The translations under genes and the position numbers were made by a program. From a bacterium (GTDB lineage Bacteria; ARS69), in NCBI GenBank assembly GCA_025774805.1, contig JALGZR010000046.1, positions 1 to 63,515 on the forward strand: a DNA stretch of 63,515 nt, in the 5' to 3' direction. Below the pieces are notes generated by a model. It had not been told where the DNA came from, made no database searches, and saw only the letters and a list, made by a program, of their open reading frames with translations. Shown one piece after another: positions 4,936-45,207 of this stretch (positions are counted from its first letter, which is position 1; each line of letters opens with the position of its first letter).

Positions 4936-5053
4936 TCCGGTCACCTCCGCGAAACGCTCACCGGCTCGCGGCCGGTGAATCCCGAGCCCGATGGCGCGGG
5001 GAATCCGGCTGCGGCTCGGCGGGCGGGGTCGGGAAGGAAGGGCGGTTCGCGGA

Positions 5054-5821: not shown

Positions 5822-5910
5822 TCGGTCGTTCCTCCTCCGTGCTCGGACCGGGCTCTTCCGCGTTCGCTCAGGGCTCTCTCAAGGCGGCCCAGTGTCTCAT
5901 GTCATCTCCT

Positions 5911-9068: not shown

Positions 9069-9083
9069 CGGCGTCCCCGAGTC

Positions 9084-9263
9084 AGCCCGGACCACTCATG
9101 AGGATCGTCGCGAGATTGCGGAGACACCCACCGGTCGAGCACCCGCAGGGGTCCGGACCCGAGGCGTATCCCGACGATACGTCGCAGGGTACGGACCCCG
9201 AGGACGCCCGTCCGGTGGCGTGGTTCCGCGATCGCAGCAGATCAATCATGAGTAGTCCGGGCT
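9084..9263. repeat. 180-bp full-length imperfect palindrome, copy 2
   Basis: It is identical in design to the copy at 5911-6090: AGCCCGGACCACTCATGA at the left, CATGAGTAGTCCGGGCT at the right, and a central hairpin GTATC (9166-9170) with GATAC (9176-9180). It fills nearly the whole spacer between the short FHA gene and the FHA-transglycosylase gene. The right end overlaps the TAG stop of the short FHA gene. Sequence identity with copy 1 is high, including the central arms. Confidence 0.9.
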
Positions 9264-9867
9264 AGAGCCGAACGCTCTTGAAGACGAACGTGGACAGCCC
9301 GAATCGCACGCGATCGTCGTCCCGGAGGACGACTTCGGTGATTCGCTCTTCGTTGCGAAACGTCCCGTTCGTCGAGTTGAGGTCCCGGAGCACGTACTCG
9401 CCTTCCCGCACCCGCAGCTCCGCGTGGGACGTCGAGACGTATTGCTCTCGCGGCAGCCGAATGTGACATTCGGCGGCCGTCCCGACCCGGGTCACGCCGT
9501 CGGGGAGACGGTAGTCCCGACCCCGTGCGGCGCCGGTGACGGCCACGAGCCAGGCGACGGTCGTGACTCTCGGATCTACGGGAGGGCCGATGAACCGGGT
9601 GACGTCGGACCCCGCCTCCAGGTCGGCCTCACCACCGTGGAGCTCGGCATCCGGCGGAGGACCCTCCACGACGGTCGCCTGATCGAGGGGCCGCCCCGCT
9701 TCCGGAATCGGATCGGGAGGCGGCTCCCTCTCGATCCGGGCCGGGCGATCGTCGGGGACGGAAGACTCCTCCGAGACCTCCTCGAATCCGAAATCCTCAT
9801 CGTCGAACGGCTCGGACTCGGGGTCCGGTGCGGAACCTTTCCGGCGGCGGCGCTTTCCGAAGAACAT
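9262..9867 (-). CDS. FHA-domain protein, first gene of the T6SS regulatory operon
   Basis: The protein has 201 residues. The start MFFGKRRRRKG is basic, followed by about 100 residues of acidic, Pro-rich low-complexity linker containing threonines in acidic context (QATVVEG, SDVTRF) that could be kinase targets. The C-terminal 85 residues form an FHA domain with RVGTAAECHIRLP, STSHAEL and NSTNGTF. It is soluble, with no membrane segment. It resembles Fha-type adaptor proteins of T6SS, in which a phosphothreonine binds an FHA domain to drive assembly; that parallel is inference. It is the gene closest to the divergent promoter region and to tssJ, and is followed by palindrome copy 2. Confidence 0.85.
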   Translation of the reverse strand: MFFGKRRRRKGSAPDPESEPFDDEDFGFEEVSEESSVPDDRPARIEREPPPDPIPEAGRPLDQATVVEGPPPDAELHGGEADLEAGSDVTRFIGPPVDPRVTTVAWLVAVTGAARGRDYRLPDGVTRVGTAAECHIRLPREQYVSTSHAELRVREGEYVLRDLNSTNGTFRNEERITEVVLRDDDRVRFGLSTFVFKSVRL

Positions 9868-9938
9868 CTCAGCTCTCGACGTGTCGCGACGGGGCCGGGT
9901 CCGGTTTCTCCGGGTCGCAGCGGACCCGCGTCAGCTTC

Positions 9939-9968
9939 AAGCTAGCACCCGCCCGGAAGAGGTGTCAA
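9939..9968 (-). promoter_or_regulatory. sigma70-type promoter for the FHA/kinase operon
   Basis: Read on the minus strand, a perfect TTGACA (9963-9968) is followed after 18 bp by TAGCTT (9939-9944). The expected start of transcription is about 65 bp before the FHA start codon. It faces away from the tssJ promoter, with the two -35 boxes 28 bp apart. Confidence 0.6.
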
Positions 9969-9996
9969 ACGGCGCAATGCCCAGGGGTTTAGCGAC

Positions 9997-10025
9997 TTGA
10001 CCTCCCTGAACCCCCCACCTAGAAT
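9997..10025 (+). promoter_or_regulatory. sigma70-type promoter for tssJKLM
   Basis: TTGACC (9997-10002) and TAGAAT (10020-10025) are separated by 17 bp, close to the consensus. The predicted leader to the tssJ start codon is about 155 bases. Between this and the opposing promoter is a short shared segment (9969-9996) where one regulator could act on both operons. Confidence 0.7.
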
Positions 10026-10187
10026 CGGCCCCTCATCGGCCGGTCCGGCAACTCGGCAACGCAGAAGCCCAATCCTCATCCGCCGATAGAGAGTCGTTCG
10101 CTCTTCAGATCCCGCCGGATCGTCGCCGCGATCCGGACCGAAGGTGTGCGTCGGACGCCGGGGCGAAGACGAAAGGGACGCGCGCGA

Positions 10188-10652
10188 ATGGTCTCGACCG
10201 TGAGAGCCTTCCTCCGTGCCGCATGCGGAGGACTCTTGGCGATCGCCCTGCTCACCGGGTGCGCCGCCACGGATCACGTCTTCCTGAACAGCGACGCCAG
10301 GGTCAACATGTGCGAGGGAGCGGATCCCCATCCGGTCCTCGTGCGGATCTACCACCTCCGGGGGACGGACCGGTTCGACCAGGCCGAGTTCACCCTCCTG
10401 TGGGAAGATGAGCAGGCGGCCCTGGGCCCGACGTTTCTTCGCCGCGAACAGCAGGTCGTGAATCCCCGAGAGAGCCTGAAGATCTCGATTCCGCGAAAGG
10501 ACGAGGCGGAGGAGGCCACTCACCTCGGATTCGTGGCGAACTTCTGCGACTTGAGCGGTGACTGCTGGCGGGTCTCCGCTCCGGTCTCGGGCCGGAAGAC
10601 GGAGATCCATCTCGATCTCGAGATGACCTGCATCGAGGTGAGCGCTCCCTGA
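10188..10652 (+). CDS. tssJ: T6SS outer-membrane lipoprotein TssJ
   Basis: The protein has 154 residues from the ATG at 10188; a longer frame adds only an Arg-rich leader. The N-terminus is a lipoprotein signal (RAACGGLLAIALLTGC) with lipobox L-L-T-G-C, so the mature protein would be lipidated at that cysteine. The remainder shows the TssJ pattern: HPVLVRIYHLRGTDRFDQAEF, a transthyretin-like core and a loop with LRREQQVVNPRESL. In known systems TssJ anchors TssM to the outer membrane within the TssJLM envelope complex. It is the first gene of an operon with tssK, 14 bp upstream of the next start. The assignment rests on motif, size and operon context. Confidence 0.88.
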   Translation: MVSTVRAFLRAACGGLLAIALLTGCAATDHVFLNSDARVNMCEGADPHPVLVRIYHLRGTDRFDQAEFTLLWEDEQAALGPTFLRREQQVVNPRESLKISIPRKDEAEEATHLGFVANFCDLSGDCWRVSAPVSGRKTEIHLDLEMTCIEVSAP

Positions 10653-10666
10653 GGGGGGGTCGATCG

Positions 10667-12019
10667 ATGAACGGACAGCGCCGGGTGGTCTGGACGGAGG
10701 GAATGCTCCTCGGGCCCCACCACTTCCAGCAGATGGAGCGCAATCTCTTCGGGGAGATGGACTTCCGGATGAGGGTGGCGCTCCCCCACGCGTGGGGGGT
10801 CCGACGGCTCACGATCGATACGGACGCCCTCGCCAACGGGCGGTTCAGTCTTCTCGAGCTCGAAGCCGTCCTCTCGTGCGGCACGTCGGTGCGCCTCCCC
10901 GCCACGGATCCCCTGCCGGAAGGACGGAACCTGGCCGAGGTCTTCTCCGCCGACCGCTCCCGGCTGGACGTGTGGCTCGCCCTGCCCGAGGAGCGTCCGG
11001 GCACGCCCCGGTGCCGTCCGTCCGAGAACGGAGGCCCGACGGAGAGCCCGTTCTGGAGCGAGACGGCGAGGATCGCGGACGAGAACGCACCGAGCTCGCA
11101 GACGGAGGTCGAGGTCGCCCATCAGAATCTCCGACTTCTCGTCTCCGGAGACAACCAGGACGGGTACCGGACCCTGAAGATCGCCGAGCTCACCCGGGCG
11201 ACGGACGGCTCGATCGTTCTCAATCCCGACTATGCGCCTCCCAGCTTGACGCTCCCTCCCGCCGGCCCCGTCCCGGGCATTCTGCGACTGGTCCTCGAGA
11301 GTCTCACCGCGAAGAGCGACACCCTGAAGGTGCAGACACGGGAGGTCGGAGGGAAGATCCAGTACAGCACCAGCGACGTGATGCTGTTCTGGCAGGTTCA
11401 CACGGTCAACTCCTTCATTCCGGTGTTCGCCCACTACCTGCGATACCCGGACACGCATCCGGCCGAGCTGTACCTCGCGTTCGTCCGGCTCCTGGGTGCG
11501 CTGTCGACGTTCGCGGGCGATCACCACCCGAGGGACATCCCCTCTTACGAGCACGAGGACCTCGGCGGCACGTACCGTCGGCTGGAGTCCATGTTCCGCG
11601 ACCTCATCGAGATCTCGGACGTGAGCCGTCACGAGAACGTGCCGCTGGAGCGCGTGGACGAGTTCATGATGCGGGGCAACGTGCGGGACGATCTCCTGGA
11701 GGAGAACTACCTCTGGTTCCTCGCCGTCTCCGGACCGATGACGGAAGACCAAATCCGCAACGAGCTGCCGGGCAAGATCACGATCGGCTCGACCCACAAC
11801 ATCGATTTCCTCGTCCGGCGCGCGCTCCGGGGCGTACCGATCACCTACACCACCATCCCGTCCAGTGATTTCCCCATCAAGTCCGGGGTCGTCTACTTCC
11901 GGCTGGAGAGCCACGGCGAGACCTGGGACACGATCAAGGAGTCACGGACGATCGCGATCTATCTGCAGGGAGCGGAGCTCAAGGAGCTCGGTTTCGAGCT
12001 GATCGCGACCCGAAGCTAG
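10667..12019 (+). CDS. tssK: T6SS baseplate protein TssK
   Basis: The protein has 450 residues, the normal TssK length. The N-terminal signature VVWTEGMLLGPHHFQQME at residues 6-23 is diagnostic of the family. The middle shows the shell-like region with FRMRVALPHAWGVRRL, and the C-terminal head domain carries GKITIGSTHNIDFLVRRAL followed by FRLESHGETWDTI. TssK links the baseplate to the TssJLM membrane complex by binding TssL and TssM. A GGGGGGG run lies 10 bases upstream of the start. No frame damage is visible. It is the second gene in tssJKLM. Confidence 0.95.
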   Translation: MNGQRRVVWTEGMLLGPHHFQQMERNLFGEMDFRMRVALPHAWGVRRLTIDTDALANGRFSLLELEAVLSCGTSVRLPATDPLPEGRNLAEVFSADRSRLDVWLALPEERPGTPRCRPSENGGPTESPFWSETARIADENAPSSQTEVEVAHQNLRLLVSGDNQDGYRTLKIAELTRATDGSIVLNPDYAPPSLTLPPAGPVPGILRLVLESLTAKSDTLKVQTREVGGKIQYSTSDVMLFWQVHTVNSFIPVFAHYLRYPDTHPAELYLAFVRLLGALSTFAGDHHPRDIPSYEHEDLGGTYRRLESMFRDLIEISDVSRHENVPLERVDEFMMRGNVRDDLLEENYLWFLAVSGPMTEDQIRNELPGKITIGSTHNIDFLVRRALRGVPITYTTIPSSDFPIKSGVVYFRLESHGETWDTIKESRTIAIYLQGAELKELGFELIATRS

Positions 12020-12054
12020 CCCGGGTTGTCCGACCAACCGACCGGGATCGTGAC

Positions 12055-12743
12055 GTGATGGAAGAGCGCGAATCTCCAGCTCGCGGCGTCCGGAGCCTCC
12101 CCGACCTGGCGGGAAGCCTGCTCTCCCTGATCCTCTCCCTGCGCTCCAGTAAGATCAGCGGACAGGAGACCGAGCTCCGGGCCCGCATCGGCGAGTACCT
12201 CGACCGCATCGACCGGGAGGGTCAGCGGGCGGGAATCGCGCGCGACGATCTCGAAGAGGCCAAGTTCCCTCTCGTCGCCTTCATCGACGAGACCATCCTC
12301 AACTCCGACTGGTCCGGCCGGGACCAGTGGATGGAGCGGCCGCTCCAGTTGGAGCTCTACGGCGAGACGGTGTCCGGAGAGAAGTTCTTCGATCGCATGG
12401 AACGCGTCCGACGGGGCGGCGAGGCGAAGTCCGATCTCCTCGAGATCTACTACCTCTGCCTCGCCCTCGGTTTCGAGGGCAAGTACAAGATTCTCGGTCA
12501 GTCGAGGACGAGGTTCGGCGGGAGCTCGGTTACGCTCGAACCACTCCCGGCAAGGCCCCGATCTCCCCGAACGGCCGTCGGCGCGAGACGCTTCGACCTC
12601 CGAAACGAAGCGGCTTCCCGGTTCTCCGCGTGGTCCTGGGATCTCTCGCCGGGCTCCTCGTTCTCTACATCGCTCTCCAGTTGATCATGGGCTTCTCCGA
12701 GGGGGCGGCCCTCCAGCGGCTTCAGGCTCTCGCGGGAGGATGA
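12055..12743 (+). CDS. tssL: T6SS membrane protein TssL (DotU/IcmH), with a -1 frame break
   Basis: The cytoplasmic DotU domain is clear in the first frame: SLLSLILSLRSS, FPLVAFIDETILNSDW, FYD-type region with RMERVRRGG and YLCLALGFEGKYKILGQ. A GTG-ATG pair gives the start (12055 or 12058). At about 12499-12502 the frame breaks. The first frame runs on into low-quality Arg/Ser sequence to a TGA at 12684, while the next frame continues VEDEVRRELGYARTT and then the expected C-terminal membrane helix (VLRVVLGSLAGLLVLYIALQ), ending at 12743, just 4 bp before tssM. One missing G after CAG would restore GQVEDEV. It is therefore a sequencing or assembly deletion, a recent mutation, or a recoding site. 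An intact TssL is needed in known T6SS. Confidence 0.85.
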
Positions 12744-12747
12744 TCTC

Positions 12748-15700
12748 GTGCCCGGCACGAAGAAGCTGATCGACTCGTTCAAGGATCCGAAGAAGCTGTT
12801 CAGGATCGTGAGAAGCCCCCGGGTGATCGTCGGGCTTCTCGGGCTCACGTTCGCCTTCCAGGTCTTCCGATTCGGCAGGCGGCTCGGCATGAGGGGCGGT
12901 ATGCGTCTCTGGATCGCGATCGGAATCCTCGTCATCGCGATCGCGGTGATCATCATTCTGCGGATTCGGGAGAAGAAGAAGGCGAAGCAGATCGAGGACT
13001 CCCTACTCCTCGAGGCGGACAGCCAGGTCCTGACGTCGAGCGGGGCCCAGCGCGCCGCCGACGAGCGGGCCCGGGAGGAGATGGCGGAGGCGATCCAGCG
13101 ACTCAAGAGCTCCAAGGTCGCGAGCGGGCGGAGCGGCAAGGTCGCCCTTCACGTCCTCCCCTGGTACCTCGTCCTCGGGCGCGGCGAGTCGGGCAAGAGC
13201 AAGGCGATCCTCAACTCGGGGCTCACGTTTCCCGGCTCGAAGCCGGCCGACCTCCGGGAGAAGGAGGGAGTCGGCCCGGGGCGGATCTGCAAGTGGTGGT
13301 TCACGAGTCAGGCCGTCGTGCTCGAGGCGAACGGACGCTTCGTCGACGAGGAGGACGACGTGGAGGCGGGCCAAGACTGGAAGGGGATCCTCGAAGTCCT
13401 CCGGAAGGCCCGGGGGGACGTCCCGCTCCAGGGAATCGTGATCTCCCTGTCCGCGGAAGACCTCATCCGGCACGACTCCGCCCGGCTGGATGCGCAGGCC
13501 CGGGTCCTCCGCCAGCGCCTCGACGAGGCCATCACGACTCTCCAGTCGTTCGCTCCGGTCTACCTCATGATCACGAAGGTCGACCTCGTCCACGGTTTCG
13601 AGGAGTACTTCGCCGATCTCGAGGGAAACGCCCGGGACCAGGCGTTCGGTGCGACCCTGACCCAGGAACAGATCCGGACGGGGGATCCGCTGCGGGCCTT
13701 CTCCCGTGAGTTCGAGATCCTCTTCCGTTCCCTCTGCCAGCGGCGAATCCCCCGCATGGTCTCCGAGGTACGTCTCGACAAACGGGGTCACATCTATCTC
13801 TTCCCGCTCGAGCTGCTCGCCCTCCGTCCGAAACTGACCACGTTCGTGAAGACGCTCTTCGAGCCGAACCCGTACGGAGAGCGCCCGATGTTCCGGGGAT
13901 TCTACTTCTCCAGTGGAAGCCTCGAGGGCCGACCGGTGGAGATGGTGGTCAACGAGGTCAGCCGCGTCATCGGAATACCGCCCGGACTGGAGGACTCCGG
14001 AGACCTGACGCGGGTCATCGACCCCGCGTCCGACTCCGCGGACCAGGCCGGCCCGGACTCCTCCGCCCGACGGACCGAGGAATCGGAGCCCCGCTTCCTG
14101 CGGGAGGTCTTCACGCGCATCCTCCCCCGCAGCAGCGTCATCGCCCATCCCACGGAGCAGGCGTCTCAGAAGAGGAGGGCTCGAAGGCTCGGACTCCAGA
14201 TCGCCGGATACGCCTCGATCGCGGTCCTCGGAGTCCTCCTCCTGATCTCGTTCTTCAACAATCGCGGCCTGCTGAGCCGAACGGACGAGATGGCGCGGGA
14301 GGCGGCGAGCGTACAGCGGGCCTCGACGGCGGAGGAGGTGGAGACCCAGCTCCGGTTGCTGGAGAGCTTCCGACAGACGCTGGCCGATCTCGACGAGTAC
14401 GACCGGAGCCGCCCGCTCACCATGGGGTTCGGTCTGTACCGGGGCGCCGCGGTCAACGAGAGGGCCCGGCGCGTCTACCTCCGCAAGCTCTTCGACGCCC
14501 TGCTCCGGCCGAGCCAGGAGGCCCTCGGCAACTGGCTGGAGCGGAGTTACCTCTACTCCCCCACCCCCGCCGAGTTCGAGGAGTACTTCGACAACTACCG
14601 CGCCTACCGAATGCTCTCCGACCGCGATCCCGGGCGGGCGGACCCGGTCTTCCTGGCGGATCAGCTCGCCGACTTCTGGCTCACGTCGACGACCGGCCCG
14701 ACCGCGAACGAGGAGGGACTCCGCAATGCCATCAATCGTCACGTCACCTACGCCTGGAATCACGTTCCCGACGTGAGGTACCAGCTCGTGGAGTCGCGGA
14801 TGCCCGGGCCGAGCCGCACCATCATCGGAGAGGCCGACGCACAGATCCGCCAGCACTGGGACTATCGCGGTTTCTACGGCGCCATGATCTCGGCCGTGAA
14901 CGACGAGACGCCCGTGTACTCACTCGATCGCGTTCCGGGTGCGGTCGGGCTTCTCACCGCGGGCGCGGCGCTCGCGACCGACGAGACCTCTATCCCCGGC
15001 GTACCCGGGAGCTTCACGCGCGAGGGGTGGGAGCTGATCTCGCAGCGGATCGCGCAGAGCGAGAGCCTGTTGAGGGACGACTGGATCCTCGGGGAAGCGC
15101 TCCAGGGGGTCGAGTTCGAAGACATGAGAACCAGCCTCGTGGAGGACTACCGGAGGGACTACGTCGACCACTGGATCCGCTTCCTCTCCGCCGTAGATCT
15201 GGTGCCCGCCCGAGGCATCGCCGGAGCGGAGGAGCAGTTCCGGAAGCTGCTGGGGCAGGGCTCTCCCTTCCTCGTCCTTCTCCAGCGCACAGCGGCGAAC
15301 CTCCGCTTCGCGACGGCGGTGGACGAGACGCCGGAGGAGAGCGAAGAAGAAGAGGAGGGCGTGACGACCGACTCCCCGCTGGCCGACATTCAGACGCGCT
15401 TCGTGGCCCTGCACAAGCTGTGGGAGACCGCGGGAGAGGGAGAGGAGGCGGCGATCCGCTCCCTGGACGAGTACCTCGACCTCCTGGGAGAGGTTCGCAA
15501 GCTTCTGCGCGCCTTGCAGGAGGTCCCCGGCCCCTCCTCGATGGGCTACGCGGCCAAGATCTTCGGGTCCCTGGCCACCGACCCCTCTGCCCTCGCCGAG
15601 GACGCGATCTTCCGGACGATTCGATTCGCGGAGGATCGAACGGATCTGCTCGAAGGAGACCAGGACTGCGCCAAGGCGGTCCGCTCTCTCCTCCGCCGTC

Positions 15701-16494
15701 CGGCGGAAGGGGCCTGGGGATCGATTCTGCGGGAGTGCGAGCGGCACCTGAACGATCTCTGGAAGCAGGACGTCTACGACCGCTACCGGGACACGATCCT
15801 CGGAAAGTACCCGTTCAGCGGCGGGGGAGCCGACGCGGATCTGGGCGAGTTCGGCAGCTTCTTCACCCCGGGCGGGATCTTCTGGACCTTCTACGACAAC
15901 AATCTCGATCTCTTCCTCGATCAGGACGAGACCCCGATCGTCCGGTACCGCAAGGGCTTCTCTCTGACGTCGGAGGGCCGGGCGGCGATCCTCAAGGCCC
16001 GGGCGATCCGGGGGGCGCTGTTCGAGGAGTCGGGGGGGGGCATCGCCCTCTCCTTCCAGGTCACGCCGCGACAGACGAAGACGGTGGAGGGCAATCCTCC
16101 GTTCGTGCACCGCTCCGTGCTCGTCGTCGGAGACCGGGAGATCACGTACAACATGGGACCGCCCCGGGCCCGCCCTGTCGCGTGGCCGGGGGAGCCGGGA
16201 CGGGAGGGCGCGTCCGTCGGGATCATGGTCGACGTGGGGAGCCCCCCCGAGAAGGTCACCGCCGACGGTCCCTGGGCGCTCTTCCGGCTCCTGGAGGAGG
16301 CGCGGGTCGAGAGAGCCTCGAGCACGGAGTACACGATCAGCTGGGTCCTCGGGAGCCCGACCGAGAGGTACAGGGTCCGCGTCCCGTACGATCTCACCGC
16401 GTCCTCGGGGACGAACCCGTTCGATCCGGGCTTCTTCCGGTTCTCTCTGCCCGAGCAGATCGCGTCTCCGTCCGAGGCTCCCGCCCTACCCTAG
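12748..16494 (+). CDS. tssM: T6SS inner-membrane protein TssM (IcmF)
   Basis: The protein has 1248 residues, full length for TssM. The start is a GTG with GGGAGG about 9 bases upstream. Two N-terminal membrane helices (about 25-42 and 52-72) precede a cytoplasmic NTPase-like domain with Walker A GRGESGKS at 144-151. A third helix lies near 484-503 (IAGYASIAVLGVLLLIS). The large periplasmic part follows, with the IcmF-related helical region and a C-terminal beta domain (VTPRQTKTVEGNPPFV, then WALFRLLEEARVE). In known systems TssM spans the periplasm to bind TssJ and forms the export channel with TssL. It is the last gene of the operon here; other tss genes are not in the window. Confidence 0.95.
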   Translation: MPGTKKLIDSFKDPKKLFRIVRSPRVIVGLLGLTFAFQVFRFGRRLGMRGGMRLWIAIGILVIAIAVIIILRIREKKKAKQIEDSLLLEADSQVLTSSGAQRAADERAREEMAEAIQRLKSSKVASGRSGKVALHVLPWYLVLGRGESGKSKAILNSGLTFPGSKPADLREKEGVGPGRICKWWFTSQAVVLEANGRFVDEEDDVEAGQDWKGILEVLRKARGDVPLQGIVISLSAEDLIRHDSARLDAQARVLRQRLDEAITTLQSFAPVYLMITKVDLVHGFEEYFADLEGNARDQAFGATLTQEQIRTGDPLRAFSREFEILFRSLCQRRIPRMVSEVRLDKRGHIYLFPLELLALRPKLTTFVKTLFEPNPYGERPMFRGFYFSSGSLEGRPVEMVVNEVSRVIGIPPGLEDSGDLTRVIDPASDSADQAGPDSSARRTEESEPRFLREVFTRILPRSSVIAHPTEQASQKRRARRLGLQIAGYASIAVLGVLLLISFFNNRGLLSRTDEMAREAASVQRASTAEEVETQLRLLESFRQTLADLDEYDRSRPLTMGFGLYRGAAVNERARRVYLRKLFDALLRPSQEALGNWLERSYLYSPTPAEFEEYFDNYRAYRMLSDRDPGRADPVFLADQLADFWLTSTTGPTANEEGLRNAINRHVTYAWNHVPDVRYQLVESRMPGPSRTIIGEADAQIRQHWDYRGFYGAMISAVNDETPVYSLDRVPGAVGLLTAGAALATDETSIPGVPGSFTREGWELISQRIAQSESLLRDDWILGEALQGVEFEDMRTSLVEDYRRDYVDHWIRFLSAVDLVPARGIAGAEEQFRKLLGQGSPFLVLLQRTAANLRFATAVDETPEESEEEEEGVTTDSPLADIQTRFVALHKLWETAGEGEEAAIRSLDEYLDLLGEVRKLLRALQEVPGPSSMGYAAKIFGSLATDPSALAEDAIFRTIRFAEDRTDLLEGDQDCAKAVRSLLRRPAEGAWGSILRECERHLNDLWKQDVYDRYRDTILGKYPFSGGGADADLGEFGSFFTPGGIFWTFYDNNLDLFLDQDETPIVRYRKGFSLTSEGRAAILKARAIRGALFEESGGGIALSFQVTPRQTKTVEGNPPFVHRSVLVVGDREITYNMGPPRARPVAWPGEPGREGASVGIMVDVGSPPEKVTADGPWALFRLLEEARVERASSTEYTISWVLGSPTERYRVRVPYDLTASSGTNPFDPGFFRFSLPEQIASPSEAPALP

Positions 16495-21271: not shown

Positions 21272-21997
21272 GTGGGTGTGCTGTTGGCGATGCTTCCCCC
21301 GAAGTCGGATCCGCGCCTTCTCCGCTACGACACGTCGGGAGAGATCATGAAAGACCATTCGAGTTCGGTGAGCTATCTCTCCGTATCGATCTCCGGCCGG
21401 TGGCCGAAACCCGCGAGGGCGGAACCGGCCGGCACCGCGGCCCTCCTCCCGGAGGAGCGCGAGTCGCTGCTGCGCCTGGCCCGGGGATCCATTCTCAACA
21501 CGCTCGAGAACGGAACGCTTCCCGAGCCGGAGGAGCTCGGGGTCGAGATCACGCCGACCCTGCAGTCCCTGCGGGGTGCGTTCGTCACCCTGACCCGGGG
21601 GGGGCAGCTTCGGGGATGTATCGGCGACATCTTTCCCCAGCAGCCGCTCTACCGATCCGTCATGGTGAACGCCGTTCACGCCGCGATCCACGACCGCCGA
21701 TTCCGACCGGTGACGCCGGAGGAGATCCCCGAGCTCCGCATCGAGATCTCGGTCCTCACGCCGCAGCGGACGATCGAGACGGTCGAGGAAATCGTCGTAG
21801 GGACCCACGGCGTGGTCCTGGAGAAGGCCGGCCGGCGCGCGGTCTTTCTTCCCCAGGTGGCCCCCGAGCAGGGGTGGGACCGCGACGAGATGCTCACGCA
21901 CCTCGCGCGCAAGGCGGGTCTTCGGGGGGACGCGTGGAGAGACGGCGCTTCCTTCACCGTCTTCGAGGCGCGCGTCTTTGGTGAGGAGGAAGGTTGA
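21266..21997 (+). CDS. amrA: MEMO C-terminus plus AMMECR1 domain (AmmeMemoRadiSam protein A), 3' part of the frame-broken gene
   Basis: This frame begins with the last MEMO strand-helix region (HPVGVLLAMLPPKSDPRLLRYDTSG and SSSVSYLSVSI, split here only by my excerpting). A linker leads to a complete AMMECR1 domain: LLPEERESLLRLARGSI, LRGAFVTLTRGGQLRGCIGD with the family's R-G-C-I-G motif, NAVHAAIHDRRF, ELRIEISVLTP and VFLPQVAPEQGWDRDEML. It ends in a TGA that overlaps the TTG start of the next gene. In the intact ancestor MEMO and AMMECR1 were one polypeptide. The AMMECR1 part itself is undamaged. It could still be made by internal initiation at the GTG at 21272, though I see no convincing ribosome binding site there. 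Confidence 0.8.
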   Translation, partial: HPVGVLLAMLPPKSDPRLLRYDTSGEIMKDHSSSVSYLSVSISGRWPKPARAEPAGTAALLPEERESLLRLARGSILNTLENGTLPEPEELGVEITPTLQSLRGAFVTLTRGGQLRGCIGDIFPQQPLYRSVMVNAVHAAIHDRRFRPVTPEEIPELRIEISVLTPQRTIETVEEIVVGTHGVVLEKAGRRAVFLPQVAPEQGWDRDEMLTHLARKAGLRGDAWRDGASFTVFEARVFGEEEG

Positions 21998-24900
21998 GCG
22001 TCGGTCCGTCTCTCCTCGTCTTTGCCCTCGGTTTCACCGCTCTCCTCGCCCAGACGCTTCTTTTCCGGGACTTCCTCACCGCCTTCGAAGGCAATGAAAT
22101 CGGCGTCGGGAGCTTTTTCGGCTCCTGGTTCCTCTGGATCGCCGTAGGGGCGTTGCTCGCGCGGGCCCGGCCGCGGACCGCGAACTGGCTCGTTCCGCTG
22201 ACCCTCCTCTACCTTCCCGCCTTCGCGATCGAGCACGAGTCGATCCGGTCCATCCGGGCGATCGCGGGGGTGGCCTCGTACGAGGTGTTTCCGTTTCGGG
22301 CCATGCTTCTCCTCTCGGTCGTGACGAACGCGCCGGTGAGTCTGGTGACGGGCGGGCTCTTCACGCTCGCCTGCCGCTGGTGGGAGTGGCGGGCTTCCCC
22401 GGGCGGACTCCCCGTGGCCCGGGTCTTCGTTCTCGAGACGCTGGGGGCGGCGGCCGGAGGAGCCGCCGTCACCGCGATGCTGGCGCGGGGCTGGCCGGGG
22501 CCGACCGCCTTCCTCGTCGGATCGGTCGTTCTCGTCGCGGCGGTGGCGGCGACCGGTTCGGGGCGCGTTCTCCGCTATCTTCCCCTGGCCGCGCTGCTCG
22601 CCGCGCACGCGGCCGGGATCGGTCCCCGGTGGGCCGAGGCGGACGCCCTCGGGGCGTGGACCCGGCTGCTTCCCGAGGACACCTACCGCGGACGCTTCGC
22701 CACACCGCAGGCCGAATACCTGCACGGCGAACGGGAGGGGCAGTTCCTGGTGATGAGCGGGGGAGGCGTCGTGGAGTCGCTGCCTGACGACGAACGGGGG
22801 GGCGAGATCACCGCCCTCGCCCTCTCCCAGCATCCGGAGACGCGACGGGCGCTCGTCGTGGGACCCGGATCGCTCGCGATCTGCCGCCAGCTCCGGGAGC
22901 TGCCCCGAATCACGGACGTGACGTGGCTGCACCCCGACCCCTCGTACCCGGCCGAGCTCGCGGGAATCCTGCCCGAGCCCCTTCGCGCCGATCTCGCCGG
23001 GCTCGACATTCCCGGCCTCGACGTGCGGGATCACCTGCGAAGCGGCGACGGCCGCTACGACCTCGTGCTGCTGAACCTCCCGGACGCGACCACGCTCGTG
23101 CTCAATCGCTACTTCACCCGGGAGTTCCTGACGCTCCTGAAGGAACGTCTCGAGCCCGACGGCGTCGTTGCCGTGCGCATCACGGGAGCGGCGAACTTTC
23201 TCGGAGGAGAGCTGGCCTTCCTCGGCGGCTCGGCGCTGGCGACGCTGCGGGCGTCGTTCGACCGGGTCGCGCTCAAGCCCGGGGACGAGAGCTGGTTGTT
23301 CGCCTCGGACGGAACCGCCCTCAGCGAGTCGCCCGCACTCCTTCGCGATCGGTTCGCCGCGCTCGAGGGCGCCGATCGGATCTTCCCCCCGGACGGAATC
23401 CTGTCTCTGGTCCCGCCCGATCGCATCGCGTTCCAGTACGCGAAGTACCGCGAGGCCGCCGAACGGGCCGGTCCGGAGATGCTCGTCAACACCGACGACC
23501 GCCCCAAGGCGCTTCTCTTCGCTCTGCTCGTCTCCCTGCGGCAGGCGGGGGTGAAGGGCCTGACCCGGATCGTGAGCGCACTCCTCTCCGGAGGGGTGTG
23601 GATGCTGGCGGGGGCGATCCTCCTCTACCCTCTCCTTCGCCTCGGTTACGTGCTCACCGATCGCTCGATCCGCGCGCGCCGTTCGCACCACGGTTTCGAC
23701 GCGGGGGCTCTCGTTTTCGCGACCGGGCTCGTCGGGATGGCGTTGAGCGTCTGGCTCATGTTCGCCTACCAGTCACGCTTCGGCTCGCTCTTCCTCCACG
23801 TCGGACTTCTCTCCGCCCTCTTCATGCTCGGCTCCTTCGGAGGCGCCCTCACCGCGGAGCGGGCCCTCCGCCGGTGGACCGACGAGCCCCCGGCTCTCCT
23901 TCCCGGGATTCTCGCGGTCCACGTCGTCGCGATCGCCGGGATCGTGGCCGTCGCGGGGGACTCGTCTCCCGCGCTCTTCGGCCTCTCGTTCGGGATCGCG
24001 GGACTCCTGACCGGCGTGTACTTCCCGATCGCGGCCCACCGCCTCCGGGCCGCGGGGCGGGAGTCGGCGGAGTCGGGCGCCGTTCTCGAGACCGTCGACC
24101 ACCTCGGCGCGGCGGCCGGGGCGGTGCTCACCGGTCTCTTCCTCCTGCCGCTCTTCGGCGGGACGGTGTCGGGAGCGCTGCTCGCCCTTCCCGTGGCGAT
24201 CCAGCTGCCGATCGCCCTCGTGCGTCGAGGCGCGCCGATCTCCGCCGAGCACGGGGACCCGGCGGATCGAGCCGACCGCTTCGTGCGGGCGGCCGGCTAC
24301 ACGATCTTCGGGATCGGTGCCGCCGCGCTCCTCGCGTCCGGAATCGCCGCCGGCCTCCGGCGCGGTCAGGAGGGAGAGCGTCTGCTCGCGGCGGCGCACG
24401 AGATGGCCGGAGGAGAGGAGCCGGAGCCGCAGGACGTCCGGCCCGCGGACGGGCCCCCGTTCCGGTACTGGAAGGGGACGGATCCCGAGGACGCGTCCGT
24501 GACGCTGGTCTTCAGCAGTGCCGGTCTGGCCGAAGGGATTCACGGCTACGGAGGTCCGCTGACGCTCGGGGTCGCGGTGAGTTCCGAGGGAGAGCTCCGG
24601 GGGTTCAAGATCCTCCGCTCACGCGAGACCCCGGCCTACCTGGAGCTGCTCCACCCGTGGAGAGACCGACTTCTCGGGAGAGACCTGTTCGCGTCGGAGG
24701 TTTTCCGCGACGTCGACGGCGTGACGGGGGCCACTCTCACGTCGAACGCGATTCTCGCGACGCTCTCCGCCGCGGGGCGGGGGTTCGCCTCGCGGGCGCT
24801 CGGACGGGAGATCGGCGAACCGGCCCCGCCGCGCACGGAGCGCGGGATCGACCCGTCGTTCGCGTGGGTCGCCGCGTTTCTCGCCGCCGCGATCCTCGTC

Positions 24901-25548
24901 CGGTTCCGGCCGGGGAGGTGGCGGCGGCGCGGCTTTCTCCTGGCGGCCTTCCTCGTTCTCGGCCTTCAGAAGAACCTGCAGTACTCCTCTCACCACGTGT
25001 TCTCGCTGCTGGGCGGAACCCTTCCGGCGGCGGGAGCCAGCGCGGCGTTTCTTCTCGTCGTCGGGGTTCCGGTCCTCACCCTGCTCGTCGGCAACGTCTA
25101 CTGCGGCTGGGTCTGTCCCTTCGGCGCGCTGCAGGAGCTTGTGGGCGAGCTCCGCCCACGACGGCTCGTCACCGATCCGGAGAAGGGAATCTGGCGGACC
25201 GGCCGACTCGTGAAGTACGGCCTGCTGTTTCTCCTCGTTCTCTCCTTCGCGCTCACCCGCGATCCCTCCGTTCTGGCCGCCGATCCGCTGACGACGTTCT
25301 ACGGGGCCGTCCGGCGCAACGCGGTCTGGGTGGTCGGGGTCGGCGCGATCGCACTGTCGATCCCGTTCCGCCGCTTCTGGTGCCGGAACCTCTGCCCGGC
25401 GGGCGCGTTCCTCTCTCTGCTCAATCTCGTGCGACTCGTCCGGAAGCTGAGCCCCGCGACCCAGCCGGGCCGCTGCGATCTCGGAGTCCGCAATCCGCGC
25501 GAGCTCGACTGCCTCCGCTGCGACCGGTGCTTCCATGCGACGGATTGA
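21994..25548 (+). CDS. giant membrane fusion: spermidine-synthase-like / FMN-binding / NapH-like 4Fe-4S protein
   Basis: The protein has 1184 residues from a TTG overlapping the previous stop, with GAGGAGGAAGG upstream. Residues 1-200 hold about seven membrane helices. Residues 215-510 form a Rossmann domain like membrane-bound spermidine synthases (ALVVGPGSLAICRQL, YDLVLLNLPDATTLVLNRY). Residues 525-790 are a second multi-helix block. Residues 820-945 form an FMN-binding domain with TGATLT at 911-916; Thr916 is the expected covalent FMN site, as in RnfG/NqrC/NosR. The C-terminal part has membrane helices and cysteine motifs CGWVC (1037-1041) and CRNLC (1130-1134), as in NapH/NosR polyferredoxins, ending CLRCDRC. 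It looks like a transmembrane electron-transfer protein fused to a methyltransferase-like fold. Lack of acidic substrate residues makes true spermidine synthesis doubtful. Confidence 0.88.
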   Translation: MSVGPSLLVFALGFTALLAQTLLFRDFLTAFEGNEIGVGSFFGSWFLWIAVGALLARARPRTANWLVPLTLLYLPAFAIEHESIRSIRAIAGVASYEVFPFRAMLLLSVVTNAPVSLVTGGLFTLACRWWEWRASPGGLPVARVFVLETLGAAAGGAAVTAMLARGWPGPTAFLVGSVVLVAAVAATGSGRVLRYLPLAALLAAHAAGIGPRWAEADALGAWTRLLPEDTYRGRFATPQAEYLHGEREGQFLVMSGGGVVESLPDDERGGEITALALSQHPETRRALVVGPGSLAICRQLRELPRITDVTWLHPDPSYPAELAGILPEPLRADLAGLDIPGLDVRDHLRSGDGRYDLVLLNLPDATTLVLNRYFTREFLTLLKERLEPDGVVAVRITGAANFLGGELAFLGGSALATLRASFDRVALKPGDESWLFASDGTALSESPALLRDRFAALEGADRIFPPDGILSLVPPDRIAFQYAKYREAAERAGPEMLVNTDDRPKALLFALLVSLRQAGVKGLTRIVSALLSGGVWMLAGAILLYPLLRLGYVLTDRSIRARRSHHGFDAGALVFATGLVGMALSVWLMFAYQSRFGSLFLHVGLLSALFMLGSFGGALTAERALRRWTDEPPALLPGILAVHVVAIAGIVAVAGDSSPALFGLSFGIAGLLTGVYFPIAAHRLRAAGRESAESGAVLETVDHLGAAAGAVLTGLFLLPLFGGTVSGALLALPVAIQLPIALVRRGAPISAEHGDPADRADRFVRAAGYTIFGIGAAALLASGIAAGLRRGQEGERLLAAAHEMAGGEEPEPQDVRPADGPPFRYWKGTDPEDASVTLVFSSAGLAEGIHGYGGPLTLGVAVSSEGELRGFKILRSRETPAYLELLHPWRDRLLGRDLFASEVFRDVDGVTGATLTSNAILATLSAAGRGFASRALGREIGEPAPPRTERGIDPSFAWVAAFLAAAILVRFRPGRWRRRGFLLAAFLVLGLQKNLQYSSHHVFSLLGGTLPAAGASAAFLLVVGVPVLTLLVGNVYCGWVCPFGALQELVGELRPRRLVTDPEKGIWRTGRLVKYGLLFLLVLSFALTRDPSVLAADPLTTFYGAVRRNAVWVVGVGAIALSIPFRRFWCRNLCPAGAFLSLLNLVRLVRKLSPATQPGRCDLGVRNPRELDCLRCDRCFHATD

Positions 25549-30869: not shown

Positions 30870-32762
30870 ATGACCCCACGCATTGACGAGATTCGCGAAG
30901 CCTATTCGGAGCAGCTGCGGACCTTCCAGAATCGACGATCCCCCGATCTCTTCGAGTCCGTGTGCGGCATCGTCCGGGCCGCGGCGGAGGACGTGGCCGA
31001 GCGCCTCTTCGACGAGATGCTCCCGGACCCCGCGGTGCGCCGTTACCTGACCCCGGACCGCGTCGAGAACGGGCTTCTCGAATCGCTGGCGGATTGGATC
31101 CGCGATCTCTTCCGCCGGCGTTCCGACTCCGAGATCGTCGCGTTCATCGAGCGGCAGCTCCGCGTCGGCCACGTCCACGCGGAGGCGAACGTCCCGATCC
31201 GCTTCATGGATCGCGGCATCCGGATCCTCAAGCGGGAGATCCACCAGCGTCTCACCTCGTCCTCGCTTTCCCGCCGCGACCTCGGACCCGCCGTCGCCAG
31301 CGTCGGCGAGATTCTCGACATCGGATCTTCTCTGATTCGGGAGAGCTTCTACAGCGACATCCTGGTGCGGGAGGGAGAGTACCGACTTCAGCAGGCCCTC
31401 AAGCGCACGCTGGCTCTCGTCCTCGCGGGGGGGCGAGGATCGCGTCTCGGACTGCTGACCGCGGCTCAGGCCAAGCCCGCCGTCCCGTTCGGCGGGAAGT
31501 TCCGGCTGATCGACTTCCCACTCTCGAGCTGCCTGAACTCGGGGATTCGCCGGGTCGGCGTCCTCACGCAGTACCGCTCTCACGATCTGATCCAGCACGT
31601 GCAGCGGGGCTGGGGGTTCTTTCGAAGGGAGCTCAGCGAGTTCATCGAGATCTGGCCGGCCCACCAGCAGACGCCGTCGGGTTCCTGGTACCGCGGCACC
31701 GCGGACGCGACCTTCCAGAATCTGGGAACGATCACCGCGCACGATCCGGATCACGTACTCGTCCTGGCGGGCGACCACGTCTACAAGCAGGACTACAGCC
31801 GGATGCTGGCGCAGCACCTCGAGCGCGGCACGCAGGTGACGGTCTGCTGCACGGAGGTGTCGAGGGAGATGGCGTCGTCGTTCGGGATCGTCACCGTCGA
31901 CGCCAACGACAACATCACCGGTTTCGTCGAAAAGCCGACCGATCCCGCGACGATCCCCGGGCGTCCCGACCGGTGCCTGGCGAGCATGGGGATCTACATC
32001 TTCGAGGCGGGCTTCCTCATTCGAGAGCTCCGGCGGGACGCGGGAGATCCCGACTCCTCCCACGACTTCGGAAAGGACCTCATCCCCTACCTGGTCGGAA
32101 AGTCGCGCATGACGGCGCACCGCTTCGAAAAGAGCTGCATCCGGAACCAGGGAACCGGCGAGTCCTACTGGCGCGACGTGGGCACCGTGGATGCGTATTG
32201 GGCCGCGAACATGGATCTCGTGACCGTCACTCCTCCTCTCGACCTCTACGATCCCGGCTGGCCGATCTGGACCTGCCAGGAGCAGAGTCCCCCCGCGAAG
32301 TTCGTCTTCGACGAAGACGGTCGCCGCGGTCACGCCGTCGATTCGATGGTCTCTTCGGGGTGCATCGTCTCCGGAGGGATCGCCCGTCGATCGCTCCTCT
32401 TCAACGACGTCCGCCTGCACTCGCAGAGCCTGGCGGAGGATTCGGTGATCCTTCCCCGCGTGGACGTGGGCAACGGCTGCCGCCTCCGCAAGGCCGTCGT
32501 GGATCGGGACTGTGTCCTCCCCGCCGGCCTGATCGTGGGAGAGGATCCCGAGGAGGACGCGAGGCGGTTCCACCGCACACGAGCGGGGGTGACCCTGATC
32601 ACGGCGTCCGCGCTCCAGCGGCTCTCTCCCGGGGACAGAGGCCCCTTCTCGGATCTGCTCCGATCGGTCTCTTCCGGGGGCGCCCGTTCGGGTCGAGAGA
32701 CTCCGGTCGCCTCCACTCCGGTCGGTCGGGGCGATGGGGCGTATTCTCGCTCTGCCGGGTGA
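30870..32762 (+). CDS. glgC: globin-coupled sensor domain fused to glucose-1-phosphate adenylyltransferase (GlgC)
   Basis: The protein has 630 residues. Residues 1-170 match the globin-coupled-sensor pattern known from E. coli DosC and HemAT: AERLFDEMLPDP (helix B/C region), FIERQLRVGHVHAEANVPI and RFMDRGIRILKREI. His103 in the VGHVH motif aligns with the heme-binding proximal histidine; the distal position usually held by Tyr appears to be Phe47. Residues 178 to about 590 are a full GlgC: LAGGRGSRLGLLTAAQAKPA, GGKFRLIDFPLSSCLNSGIR, TADATFQNL, VLVLAGDHVY, FVEKP and a beta-helix tail (SMVSSGCIVSGG). GlgC makes ADP-glucose for glycogen. An oxygen, NO or redox signal sensed by heme could gate glycogen synthesis; this is inference. 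The usual Arg of R-A-K-P-A is Gln here. Confidence 0.88.
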   Translation: MTPRIDEIREAYSEQLRTFQNRRSPDLFESVCGIVRAAAEDVAERLFDEMLPDPAVRRYLTPDRVENGLLESLADWIRDLFRRRSDSEIVAFIERQLRVGHVHAEANVPIRFMDRGIRILKREIHQRLTSSSLSRRDLGPAVASVGEILDIGSSLIRESFYSDILVREGEYRLQQALKRTLALVLAGGRGSRLGLLTAAQAKPAVPFGGKFRLIDFPLSSCLNSGIRRVGVLTQYRSHDLIQHVQRGWGFFRRELSEFIEIWPAHQQTPSGSWYRGTADATFQNLGTITAHDPDHVLVLAGDHVYKQDYSRMLAQHLERGTQVTVCCTEVSREMASSFGIVTVDANDNITGFVEKPTDPATIPGRPDRCLASMGIYIFEAGFLIRELRRDAGDPDSSHDFGKDLIPYLVGKSRMTAHRFEKSCIRNQGTGESYWRDVGTVDAYWAANMDLVTVTPPLDLYDPGWPIWTCQEQSPPAKFVFDEDGRRGHAVDSMVSSGCIVSGGIARRSLLFNDVRLHSQSLAEDSVILPRVDVGNGCRLRKAVVDRDCVLPAGLIVGEDPEEDARRFHRTRAGVTLITASALQRLSPGDRGPFSDLLRSVSSGGARSGRETPVASTPVGRGDGAYSRSAG

Positions 32763-41706: not shown

Positions 41707-44700
41707 ATGATGCAGTCCCCGCGCATGGAGTTCCACGTCTCCCGTCGCGCCCGCGACACGTACGGGTTTGACGCGAGCCTCTTCTCTCTGACAGAAAACG
41801 TCGTCTTCGCCGACTTCCGGGCGGCGCGCGTGTTCGCCGAACGAATGAACCGCAAGCGCGACCTCGTTCGTTTCCCGGAGCGCGCGGTGACGGCGGGCTC
41901 GATCAACGCGATGGGGCTCATCGACGAGATTCTGCACTACGTCGTCGGCCTGTTCCGCCGGCAGAGAAACGCGAAGGTGCTCGGGGAAGCCGCCGAGTGG
42001 CTGACCGCGAGGATCGGCGAGACCGAGTTGGACCGAACGTTGCGGGAATTCATCCGGGAGTTCCCGCCGGTCGCGGTGTACCGGGGTGAGATCCGGTGGG
42101 AGGACTGGCTCACCGGTGAATCCGGCGGCGTGCCGCATCGGCAGGTGGCGCTGGAAGAGCTGCTGATGCTCTGGCTGGCCAACGCGAATCCGGCGTACGC
42201 ACCGTACGGAGAGCTGTTCGACGACGCACGACTGACGACGAGGACGGCCTACGGCCGGATCCTGGCGAGTCTCCACGATTTCTTCGACGGACAGCCCGTT
42301 TTCGGCCCCGATCATCAGAACCTGATCGACATGCTCCGCGCGCCGGCGGTCGCCGTGCCCCACTCGTTGCCCGGGCAGCTCGAGTACATCCGCACGCGCT
42401 GGGGTCATCTGCTCGGCGACTTCCTCCCCCGGCTGCTGAGCAGTCTGGACCTCGTCAAAGAGGAGGGGAAGGCACGGTTCCTCGGGCCCGGCCCCGTGGG
42501 AGCGCATGACCTCTCCGGGCTGGCGCTCGAGCCCCGACGGTTCAGTCCGGATCGGGACTGGATGCCGAAGCTGGTCCTGATTGCCAAGAACGTCTACGTG
42601 TGGATGGACCAGCTCTCCCGGTGGACCGGGCGTTCGCTCACCCGGCTCGATCAAATCCCCGAGGAGGAGCTCGACCGACTTGCGCGCTGGGGCTTCACGG
42701 GTCTGTGGCTGATCGGGCTGTGGGAGCGCAGCGCCGCCTCCCGCCGCATCAAGCAGCTCCGTGGCAACCCGGAGGCGGTCGCCTCGGCATACTCGCTCTT
42801 CGCCTACGAGATCGCCGCGGACCTCGGGGGGGACGACGCCCTCCGGACGCTTCGCGAGCGAGCCGGGCGGCGGGGGATCCGGCTCGCCTCCGATATGGTG
42901 CCGAATCATGTCGGCATCGACGGGCGCTGGGTCGTCGAGCATCCCGACTGGTTCGTCGGGCTCGACCACAGCCCCTTCCCCGCGTACACGTTTCAGGGCC
43001 CGAATCTATCGCAGGACGATCGCGTCGGGATCTTCCTGGAGGATCACTACTACGACCACAGCGACGCCGCGGTCGTCTTCAAACGCGTGGACCTCTGGAC
43101 GGGATCGGAACGGTTCCTCTACCACGGCAACGACGGAACCTCGATGCCCTGGAACGACACCGCGCAGCTCGACTACCTGAAGGCCGAGGTCCGCGAGGCG
43201 GCCATCCAGACCATCCTGAGCGTGGCGCGGCGCTTCCCCGTGATCCGGTTCGACGCGGCGATGACGCTGGCGAAGCGCCACTTCCAGCGGCTCTGGTACC
43301 CGGAGCCGGGGAGCGGCGGTGACATCCCCTCGCGCGCCGAGCACGGTCTCACGAAGGCGGAATTCGACCGGGCCATGCCGCGCGAATTCTGGAGGGAGGT
43401 CGTCGACCGGGTGGCGGCGGACGTGCCGGACACCCTGTTGCTGGCGGAGGCCTTCTGGTTGATGGAAGGCTACTTCGTGCGGACGCTCGGCATGCACCGG
43501 GTCTACAACAGCGCGTTCATGGTCATGCTCCGCGACGAGAGGAACCAGGACTACCGTCAGCTCATCAAGAACACCCTGGAGTTCGATCCGGAGATCCTGA
43601 AACGCTACGTCAACTTCATGAACAACCCGGACGAGCGCACGGCCGTCGACCAGTTCGGGAAGGAGGACAAGTTCTTCGGCGTGTGTACGATGATGGTCAC
43701 CCTCCCGGGTCTGCCGATGTTCGGCCACGGACAGATCGAAGGATTCACCGAGAAGTACGGAATGGAATACCGGCGGGCCTACCATGATGAGCGACCCGAC
43801 GACCATCTCGTCTCGCGCCACGAGCGCGAGATCTTTCCCCTGCTGCGCCGCCGCCACGTGTTCGCGGAGGCCAGGGACTTCCTCCTCTACGACTTCTTCC
43901 TTGCCGAGGGGCGGGTCAACGAGGACGTCTTCGCGTACTCGAACCGCGCGGGCGACGAGCGGGCTCTCCTGATCTACCACAACCGTTACGCGTCGACGGG
44001 CGGCTGGATCCGGACCTCCACGCCGTGCCCCGTGGCGAAGGGATCCGACGGCCGATTCGTCCTCGTACAGAAGACGCTCGGCGAAGGGCTCGGCCTGAAT
44101 CCCGAGGCGGGCTTCTTCACGGTCTTCCGGGATCACCACTCCGGACTCGAGTATCTGCGCAGCAACCGGGAGCTGCTCGAACGGGGCCTGTACGTGGAGC
44201 TGGACGCGTACAAGTGCCACGTGTTCCTGGACTTCCGAGAGGTGCGCGACGACGGGCGGAACCCCTGGGCGCGCCTCTCGGAACGGCTCGACGGGCGCGG
44301 TGTCCCGAGCGTCGACGAGGCGCTTCAGGCTCTCGTGCTGGAGCCGGTCCACGGTCCACTCCGGGAGCTGGCCCGTCCTGAACGGTTTCGGAGACTCGCC
44401 GCGCTCGCGATCGGCGCCGGGCCGGCGGACGAAGTGGAGAGCGCCCTCGATGACGTGAAGACGGCGGCGCGAACGCTGGCCGGGGCGGCGCGGGACTTCT
44501 GCGGGGGAACCGGCACTCCGGAGGAGATCGCCGCGCGGGTGCGGGACGACGTGGCCGTCGCGCTCCGGTTGCCGGCCATCCTCGGCAAGACACACGACAC
44601 GGAGGCGGCCGATCCGTGGCAGGGGGACGACCCGGTCTTTTGGGCCCCGTTGCTCGGATGGCTGTTCCTTCACCGCCTGGGCGAGGCGACCGGCGGGAAG

Positions 44701-45207
44701 GAAGCGACCGCCGTCAGTCGTGCGTGGATCGACGAGTGGCGACTGGGGACCCCGCTGATCGGATCGATGCGTGCGCTCGGACTCGAGGAAGATCGAGCCG
44801 AGCATGCCGTCTCGCTCGTGAAGATCCTGATCGGGCAGCAGGACTGGGCGCGCGCGGTGGTGCCGCCGTCGAAGTCTCGGGAGAAGAGCCCGGCCTCCGG
44901 GATTCTCCGCGCCTGGCTGGGCGACGAGGAGATGCAGCGGTTCCTGAACGTGAATCGCGCCGGTGGCAAAGTCTGGTTCGGCCGCGAGCCGTTCCGGGAG
45001 TGGCTCGAATGGGCGCTCGTGATTGCCGGGCACCGAGCGGGCGCGGACACCAGCGACTCCGTTCAGGCCGCGCGACGCCTCCGGGACGCGCTCGAGGTCA
45101 TCCGGAGCCTGCGCGAGGCGGAGAGCCGGTCCGGGTACGAAGTGGATCGGTTGCTGGAGGCGGTGGACGCGGGTCGGACGCTCGAGGGCGAGCGTCGCGG
45201 CCGGTAA
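41707..45207 (+). CDS. very large GH13 alpha-amylase-family enzyme with unique N- and C-terminal domains
   Basis: The protein has 1166 residues, cytosolic (no signal peptide). Residues 1-270 form a helical domain I do not recognise. The TIM-barrel begins near residue 285. The GH13 regions are ASDMVPNHVG (region I), VIRFDAAMTLAK with nucleophile Asp516, LLLAEAFWL with acid/base Glu581, and NFMNNPDERTA with Asp642. GHGQIEGFTEKYGMEYRRA follows, then a C-terminal domain of about 380 residues with no family features. The unusual FMNNPDE (usually N-H-D) and the long insertions set it apart from usual amylases and branching enzymes. The substrate is likely an alpha-glucan such as glycogen, fitting the globin-GlgC gene 10 kb away, but this is inference. 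Confidence 0.85.
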   Translation: MMQSPRMEFHVSRRARDTYGFDASLFSLTENVVFADFRAARVFAERMNRKRDLVRFPERAVTAGSINAMGLIDEILHYVVGLFRRQRNAKVLGEAAEWLTARIGETELDRTLREFIREFPPVAVYRGEIRWEDWLTGESGGVPHRQVALEELLMLWLANANPAYAPYGELFDDARLTTRTAYGRILASLHDFFDGQPVFGPDHQNLIDMLRAPAVAVPHSLPGQLEYIRTRWGHLLGDFLPRLLSSLDLVKEEGKARFLGPGPVGAHDLSGLALEPRRFSPDRDWMPKLVLIAKNVYVWMDQLSRWTGRSLTRLDQIPEEELDRLARWGFTGLWLIGLWERSAASRRIKQLRGNPEAVASAYSLFAYEIAADLGGDDALRTLRERAGRRGIRLASDMVPNHVGIDGRWVVEHPDWFVGLDHSPFPAYTFQGPNLSQDDRVGIFLEDHYYDHSDAAVVFKRVDLWTGSERFLYHGNDGTSMPWNDTAQLDYLKAEVREAAIQTILSVARRFPVIRFDAAMTLAKRHFQRLWYPEPGSGGDIPSRAEHGLTKAEFDRAMPREFWREVVDRVAADVPDTLLLAEAFWLMEGYFVRTLGMHRVYNSAFMVMLRDERNQDYRQLIKNTLEFDPEILKRYVNFMNNPDERTAVDQFGKEDKFFGVCTMMVTLPGLPMFGHGQIEGFTEKYGMEYRRAYHDERPDDHLVSRHEREIFPLLRRRHVFAEARDFLLYDFFLAEGRVNEDVFAYSNRAGDERALLIYHNRYASTGGWIRTSTPCPVAKGSDGRFVLVQKTLGEGLGLNPEAGFFTVFRDHHSGLEYLRSNRELLERGLYVELDAYKCHVFLDFREVRDDGRNPWARLSERLDGRGVPSVDEALQALVLEPVHGPLRELARPERFRRLAALAIGAGPADEVESALDDVKTAARTLAGAARDFCGGTGTPEEIAARVRDDVAVALRLPAILGKTHDTEAADPWQGDDPVFWAPLLGWLFLHRLGEATGGKEATAVSRAWIDEWRLGTPLIGSMRALGLEEDRAEHAVSLVKILIGQQDWARAVVPPSKSREKSPASGILRAWLGDEEMQRFLNVNRAGGKVWFGREPFREWLEWALVIAGHRAGADTSDSVQAARRLRDALEVIRSLREAESRSGYEVDRLLEAVDAGRTLEGERRGR

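Follow-up and report, generated by a model that had tools for sequence, protein, structure and literature searches.

A sensor globin fused to ADP-glucose pyrophosphorylase in a rare bacterial protein

The gene at positions 30870–32762 of the window, by which we mean the whole 63,515-nucleotide stretch of DNA analysed here, encodes an N-terminal sensor globin and a complete ADP-glucose pyrophosphorylase (GlgC) in one polypeptide. The protein has the architecture of a globin-coupled sensor, with a sensor globin at its N terminus, a proximal histidine in the F helix and an output domain at the C terminus of the same chain. From these features we somewhat favour the reading that it is a haem-based globin-coupled sensor with a metabolic enzyme as its output. 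With slightly less confidence than doubt, we propose further that a sensor globin derived from those of cyclases has lost the tyrosine that stabilizes O2 and that, in a rare module common to two phyla, it now switches the committed step of α-glucan storage according to haem redox state or NO.

The globin-coupled sensors known so far control second messengers, chemotaxis or kinases, and the fusion would define a new type characterized by a metabolic enzyme as output and lying outside the subset that binds O2 through a distal tyrosine. If the reading is correct, one protein links gas or redox state to metabolism, with a rate-setting enzyme of carbon storage as the output. GlgC is among the best-studied allosteric enzymes: structures are available, its effector sites are known and it is simple to assay. 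The transfer of a signal from a sensor globin to its output can therefore be tested here on a quantitative enzyme. The fusion is relevant, too, to the question of why some sensor globins have no distal tyrosine. The features of the gene are as follows.

30870..32762, plus strand: globin–GlgC fusion, complete gene, a single open frame of 630 aa (stop included)
30870..31343, plus strand: N-terminal sensor-globin domain, residues 1–158 (PF11563, Foldseek, VIA-align)
31008..31010, plus strand: codon of F47, at the distal B10 tyrosine position (Y43 in DosC and BpeGReg), placed by the gapless BpeGReg alignment
31083..31085, plus strand: codon of S72, at the distal serine position (S68 in BpeGReg, S82 in PccGCS), retained in the gapless alignment
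31176..31178, plus strand: codon of H103, predicted proximal haem ligand in a VGHVHA motif, identical in all 12 aligned sensor globins, that of the second fusion among them
31272..31403, plus strand: long H or signal helix, residues 135–178, entering the first GlgC strand (residues 180–185) in the full-length AlphaFold2 model (pLDDT of around 60–85)
31383..32624, plus strand: GlgC, ADP-glucose pyrophosphorylase, residues 172–585, nucleotidyltransferase and left-handed β-helix (NF001947, TIGR02091)

Architecture of the fusion protein

A first-pass annotation, made from the sequence alone, had described a single 630-residue frame joining a globin to GlgC. The frame is indeed uninterrupted, starting at an ATG at 30870 with an AGGGGA stretch around 8 bases 5′ of it, and profile models bore out the proposed architecture: PF11563 is followed by NTP_transferase and the hexapeptide β-helix, and a Pfam search found no GGDEF model match in the protein. 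For practical purposes, we can dismiss the possibility that two genes were joined by a frame error, as GC3 is 0.85 throughout the frame, both halves match the genome in DNA composition and a homologous fusion occurs in another phylum. The annotation had also singled out the output enzyme as unusual for a globin sensor, and this assessment stands, with kinases, MCPs and DGCs being the outputs named in a study of PccGCS (PMC12805357).

The Protoglobin profile PF11563 matched residues 28–157 with 44.2 bits when the whole protein was searched and with 48.1 bits when the domain was searched by itself (cut-off of 25 bits). Searching the PDB by sequence with the first 177 residues returned globin-coupled sensors, including BpeGReg (4uiq, E-value of 1.4e-9), 6m9a, an Azotobacter sensor (4uii), E. 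coli DosC (4zva) and a Geobacter sensor (2w31). The BpeGReg alignment has no gaps over the span of helices B to F. The VGHVH motif noted earlier occupies residues 99–103, and H103 aligns, again without gaps, to the proximal histidine of BpeGReg and DosC; across 12 aligned sensor globins, all 12 of which match PF11563, only G100 and H103 are invariant. On the distal side, the suspected replacement of tyrosine by phenylalanine proved correct: the B10 tyrosine of O2-binding sensors is absent, its position being occupied by F47 here and by leucine in the second fusion described below. A second distal hydrogen-bond donor, the serine found in PccGCS and BpeGReg but not in DosC, is present as S72, and the position of BpeGReg Met69 is taken by L73.

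The closest non-fused globins belong to signalling proteins, namely globin-coupled diguanylate cyclases, with DosC (YddV, EcGReg), BpeGReg and PccGCS the nearest relatives in both sequence and structure. Like these proteins, the fusion has an N-terminal sensor globin, a proximal histidine in a VGxVHA motif and a long H helix that connects to an enzyme domain; unlike them, it lacks a middle domain and a GGDEF domain, has a metabolic pyrophosphorylase as output and carries phenylalanine for the distal tyrosine. HemAT and AfGcHK likewise use the H helix to couple a sensor globin to its output (fold match with a Z-score of around 10), but their outputs are signal-transduction domains, a chemoreceptor and a histidine kinase, respectively, and their globins are less similar to that of the fusion. 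Phenylalanine at the distal tyrosine position is also found in a globin-coupled sensor of Acidithiobacillus sp. YTS05 (L109:11517-13589, minus strand, a 690-aa frame), so the fusion is not alone in this change. Another relative, an alphaproteobacterial globin-coupled cyclase in a 469-aa frame (L153, G131:C161), has a GGDEF motif that seems degenerate, with FCCRPER in its place.

Structure prediction, which the first-pass annotation had proposed as a check, gave a sensor-globin fold for the globin part, with the BpeGReg and DosC globins as the best Foldseek matches (E-value of 4.3e-5, TM-score of 0.60–0.72). The globin-only AlphaFold2 model, computed from the single sequence, has the helix order of sensor globins and a long final helix spanning residues 135–176 (pLDDT of 68, falling below 50 for residues 99–106 around H103). 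VIA-align again puts the BpeGReg and DosC sensor globins closest (Z-score of 13.4 to 4uiq, with 150 residues aligned), and its structural neighbours include stressosome and pXO sensor globins that lack haem (Z-scores of 10.3–10.9). In the full-length model, built from an alignment of 43 rows that, apart from the query, cover GlgC only, the long helix passes directly into the enzyme and is predicted to leave no room for a middle domain between globin and GlgC. The junction enters the N-terminal region of GlgC that matters for allostery; in the E. coli enzyme this region is important for activation and inhibition, to judge by the titles of Wu and Preiss (1998, 2001) as cited in PMC6773804.

The enzyme half was called a complete GlgC, which both family models uphold: NF001947 scored 630 bits (cut-off of 470) and TIGR02091 465 bits (cut-off of 424.9). 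As in the E. coli (5l6s) and A. tumefaciens (5w6j) enzymes of the NF001947/PRK00725 group, to which the GlgC part of the full-length model superimposes with a TM-score of around 0.90, the catalytic residues are kept, with all six of R189, R192, K202, D302, K355 and D436 corresponding to E. coli R29, R32, K42, D142, K195 and D276. What sets the protein apart from an ordinary GlgC is the roughly 170 additional N-terminal residues that form the sensor globin.

The activator site is partly conserved. E. coli K39, R40, R52 and R386 correspond to A199, Q200, R212 and R546, with two of the four kept at a site that is variable in 42 unfused relatives too, and at two further activator-site positions R419 is replaced by Ala and R423 by Gln. 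In E. coli GlgC, R40A and R52A abolish activation by FBP and R130A pre-activates the enzyme (PMC6773804). Among the 42 unfused relatives R40 is not universal, and Ala, the residue of the fusion at the R130 position, is the commonest one there. We considered whether the loss of activator residues signals that the globin has taken over control and dropped the idea because the same variation occurs in ordinary relatives. The enzyme half is 62–66% identical to GlgC of the Rhodospirillales type, and by sequence it looks like proteobacterial enzymes and not like the phylum's own GlgC.

Rarity of the fusion and a second example

Globin–GlgC fusions are very rare. The upstream frames of the 80 nearest GlgCs contain no globin, and the matches listed for genomes of Alphaproteobacteria (385), Gammaproteobacteria (369) and Planctomycetota (343) included no fusion. 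Another 377 genomes of Myxococcota yielded at least one, giving at least one in around 1,470 genomes sampled across four large groups, a sample that could miss a diverged globin fused to another type of GlgC. The fusion occurs in one of five genomes of the window's phylum and in one of 63 genomes of the order that contains the second example. Scans of genome contigs with the globin domain alone, and of viral contigs with the globin, found no relative. GlgC frames that were long or matched early (G769, G714, G492, G766, G760, G679, G589 and others) had upstream parts without a globin match, which we read as frame lying outside the gene, and Protoglobin matches in an Acidithiobacillus genome that holds a near GlgC were separate sensors. 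Our literature search found no paper that links globin-coupled sensors to GlgC or ADP-glucose pyrophosphorylase, although an unremarked annotation in UniProt or InterPro may exist, and the available part of a 2024 review of prokaryotic α-glucan enzymes mentions neither globin nor heme.

The second fusion, a single gene in the Myxococcota sample (G720:C840, locus L112:434-2206), encodes 590 aa with the same architecture. Its enzyme half scored 631 bits with the GlgC model, and its globin scored 25.7 bits with PF11563 for the domain alone and 21.8 bits for the whole protein (cut-off of 25). The two fusions align end to end with the junction at the same place and are 53% identical over the whole alignment, with 64% identity between the GlgC halves and around a third between the globins. 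The second globin (L112:434-930, plus strand) lacks six residues in the C–E region and keeps the proximal histidine and the G and H helices. Identity between the two proteins is 39–40% in the F, G and H helices versus 15–26% in earlier segments, so the side that bears the ligand and would pass on the signal is better kept, and in the second fusion the distal pocket appears from this comparison to decay faster than the output side. The two fusion globins match each other with 70.8 bits, whereas the second matches the other sensor globins compared with at most 39 bits, and we therefore consider a single origin of the fused globin likely. For the GlgC halves, a quick tree joined the two fusions (SH-aLRT of 94) and a more careful tree did not, with an AU test P value of 0.35.

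Possible signals and alternative readings

The first suggestion, that glycogen synthesis is under direct control of O2, NO or redox state, is plausible from the sequence, with stable O2 sensing appearing the least likely of the three by analogy with PccGCS. In that protein the equivalent substitution, Y57F, abolishes stable binding and leads to rapid auto-oxidation, such that O2 titration was impossible, and cooperative O2 binding depends on the distal serine (PMC12805357). The behaviour of Y57F suggests that NO, CO or the redox state of the haem is a likelier signal for the fusion than stable O2 binding. In the mechanism that we propose, haem would bind at H103, and with phenylalanine in place of the distal tyrosine it would not hold O2 stably; the globin would instead sense NO (or CO), or else the Fe(III)/Fe(II) state, itself set indirectly by O2 through auto-oxidation. 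The change would travel along helices G and H, also the dimer interface of the sensor, into the N-terminal allostery region of GlgC and shift the GlgC tetramer between low- and high-activity forms, so that ADP-glucose and α-glucan storage would follow gas or redox state with no second messenger or transcription between them.

The main rival, which we think unlikely but take seriously, is a structural, non-signalling globin, a leftover whose fold has been kept and helps GlgC to dimerize or stabilizes it, with no functional haem signal. RsbR-type stressosome globin sensors, which are haem-less, offer the precedent: in them, as in the fusion, a long helix comes after the sensor-globin fold (7b0u, 3zta), and haem-less globins are among the structural neighbours of our model. 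The best argument for such a role is the eroded pocket of the second fusion, which with its retained histidine leaves room for a structural or haem-only function; the distal side of the window protein is non-canonical as well, and the best-kept parts include helices G and H, through which sensor globins dimerize. Yet both fusions carry the proximal histidine despite divergence of their globins to around a third identity, the window protein retains S72, and the best structural matches are haem-binding sensors. A globin that binds O2 reversibly, with S72 and other distal contacts replacing the tyrosine and with binding raising or lowering ADP-glucose synthesis, is in our view improbable. The alignment of S72 to the distal serine of BpeGReg and PccGCS fits this possibility, as does the close relationship to O2-regulated diguanylate cyclases, but stable O2 binding is lost in PccGCS Y57F, and the second fusion also lacks the tyrosine and part of the distal region.

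We give still less credence to a globin that is attached to GlgC but exerts no allosteric control over it, serving instead to sense haem availability or to scavenge NO or peroxide. Auto-oxidizing or NO-reacting chemistry would be compatible with a distal pocket that is hydrophobic and has an intact histidine; however, the long connecting helix and the nearest non-fused relatives are those of signalling proteins, and no reductase domain, or reductase gene among the neighbours tested, was seen. To an artefact, whether a chimeric contig, a contaminant contig or two genes joined by a frame error, we attach almost no weight. The genome is a draft of 284 contigs with 5% estimated contamination, and the enzyme half is proteobacterial-like, unlike the GlgC typical of the phylum. 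Against this, the contig carries, 13 kb from the fusion, a malate dehydrogenase gene that is single-copy in the genome and 75–82% identical to those of genomes of the same family, and tetranucleotide usage is genome-like, with a correlation of around 0.96 between the window and four other stretches of the genome and of 0.87 between the fusion gene and the genome, compared with 0.57 for Rhodospira. On the strength of the malate dehydrogenase and the tetranucleotide profile we rejected a contaminant contig, and a homologous fusion with the same junction in another genome argues against artefacts of assembly or frame.

Genomic setting

A GlgC of around 424 aa from a different subfamily (PRK02862-like) is native to the family, being found in three of four other family genomes and on a separate contig of the fusion genome. 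The fusion is thus an extra copy with a proteobacterial-looking enzyme half, probably acquired, and the presence of the native type leaves it free to specialize. The native gene (G000:C137:7485-8750, equivalent to L150:7485-8750, minus strand) lies outside a glycogen cluster, beside PIG-L and MmgE/PrpD genes.

The fusion gene stands alone, with an opposite-strand GDSL/TPR gene upstream and, 420 bases downstream, a Rid-family gene followed by a DAHP synthase gene that has a paralogue; no glycogen cluster is present among the neighbours tested. GlgA and GlgB were not found by tblastn in 1.45 of 5.1 Mb (28% of the genome) with E. coli queries, which are approximate, and a link to glycogen, as opposed to another use of ADP-glucose, is therefore one that we infer.

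Elsewhere in the window, 9 kb downstream of the fusion, a GH13-like protein of 1166 aa (41707–45207, plus strand) gave weak α-amylase matches (27 bits with Pfam and 33 bits to haloarchaeal MalA) and is far larger than that family. At 21994–25548 (plus strand), a protein of 1184 aa combines a spermidine-synthase-like part (a weak match) with FMN-binding and 4Fe-4S parts in one frame, an unusual combination. The region 1081–16494 holds the Type VI secretion genes TssJ, TssK and TssM/IcmF beside Ser/Thr kinase, PP2C phosphatase and FHA genes, and the FHA gene also bears an SLT transglycosylase domain.
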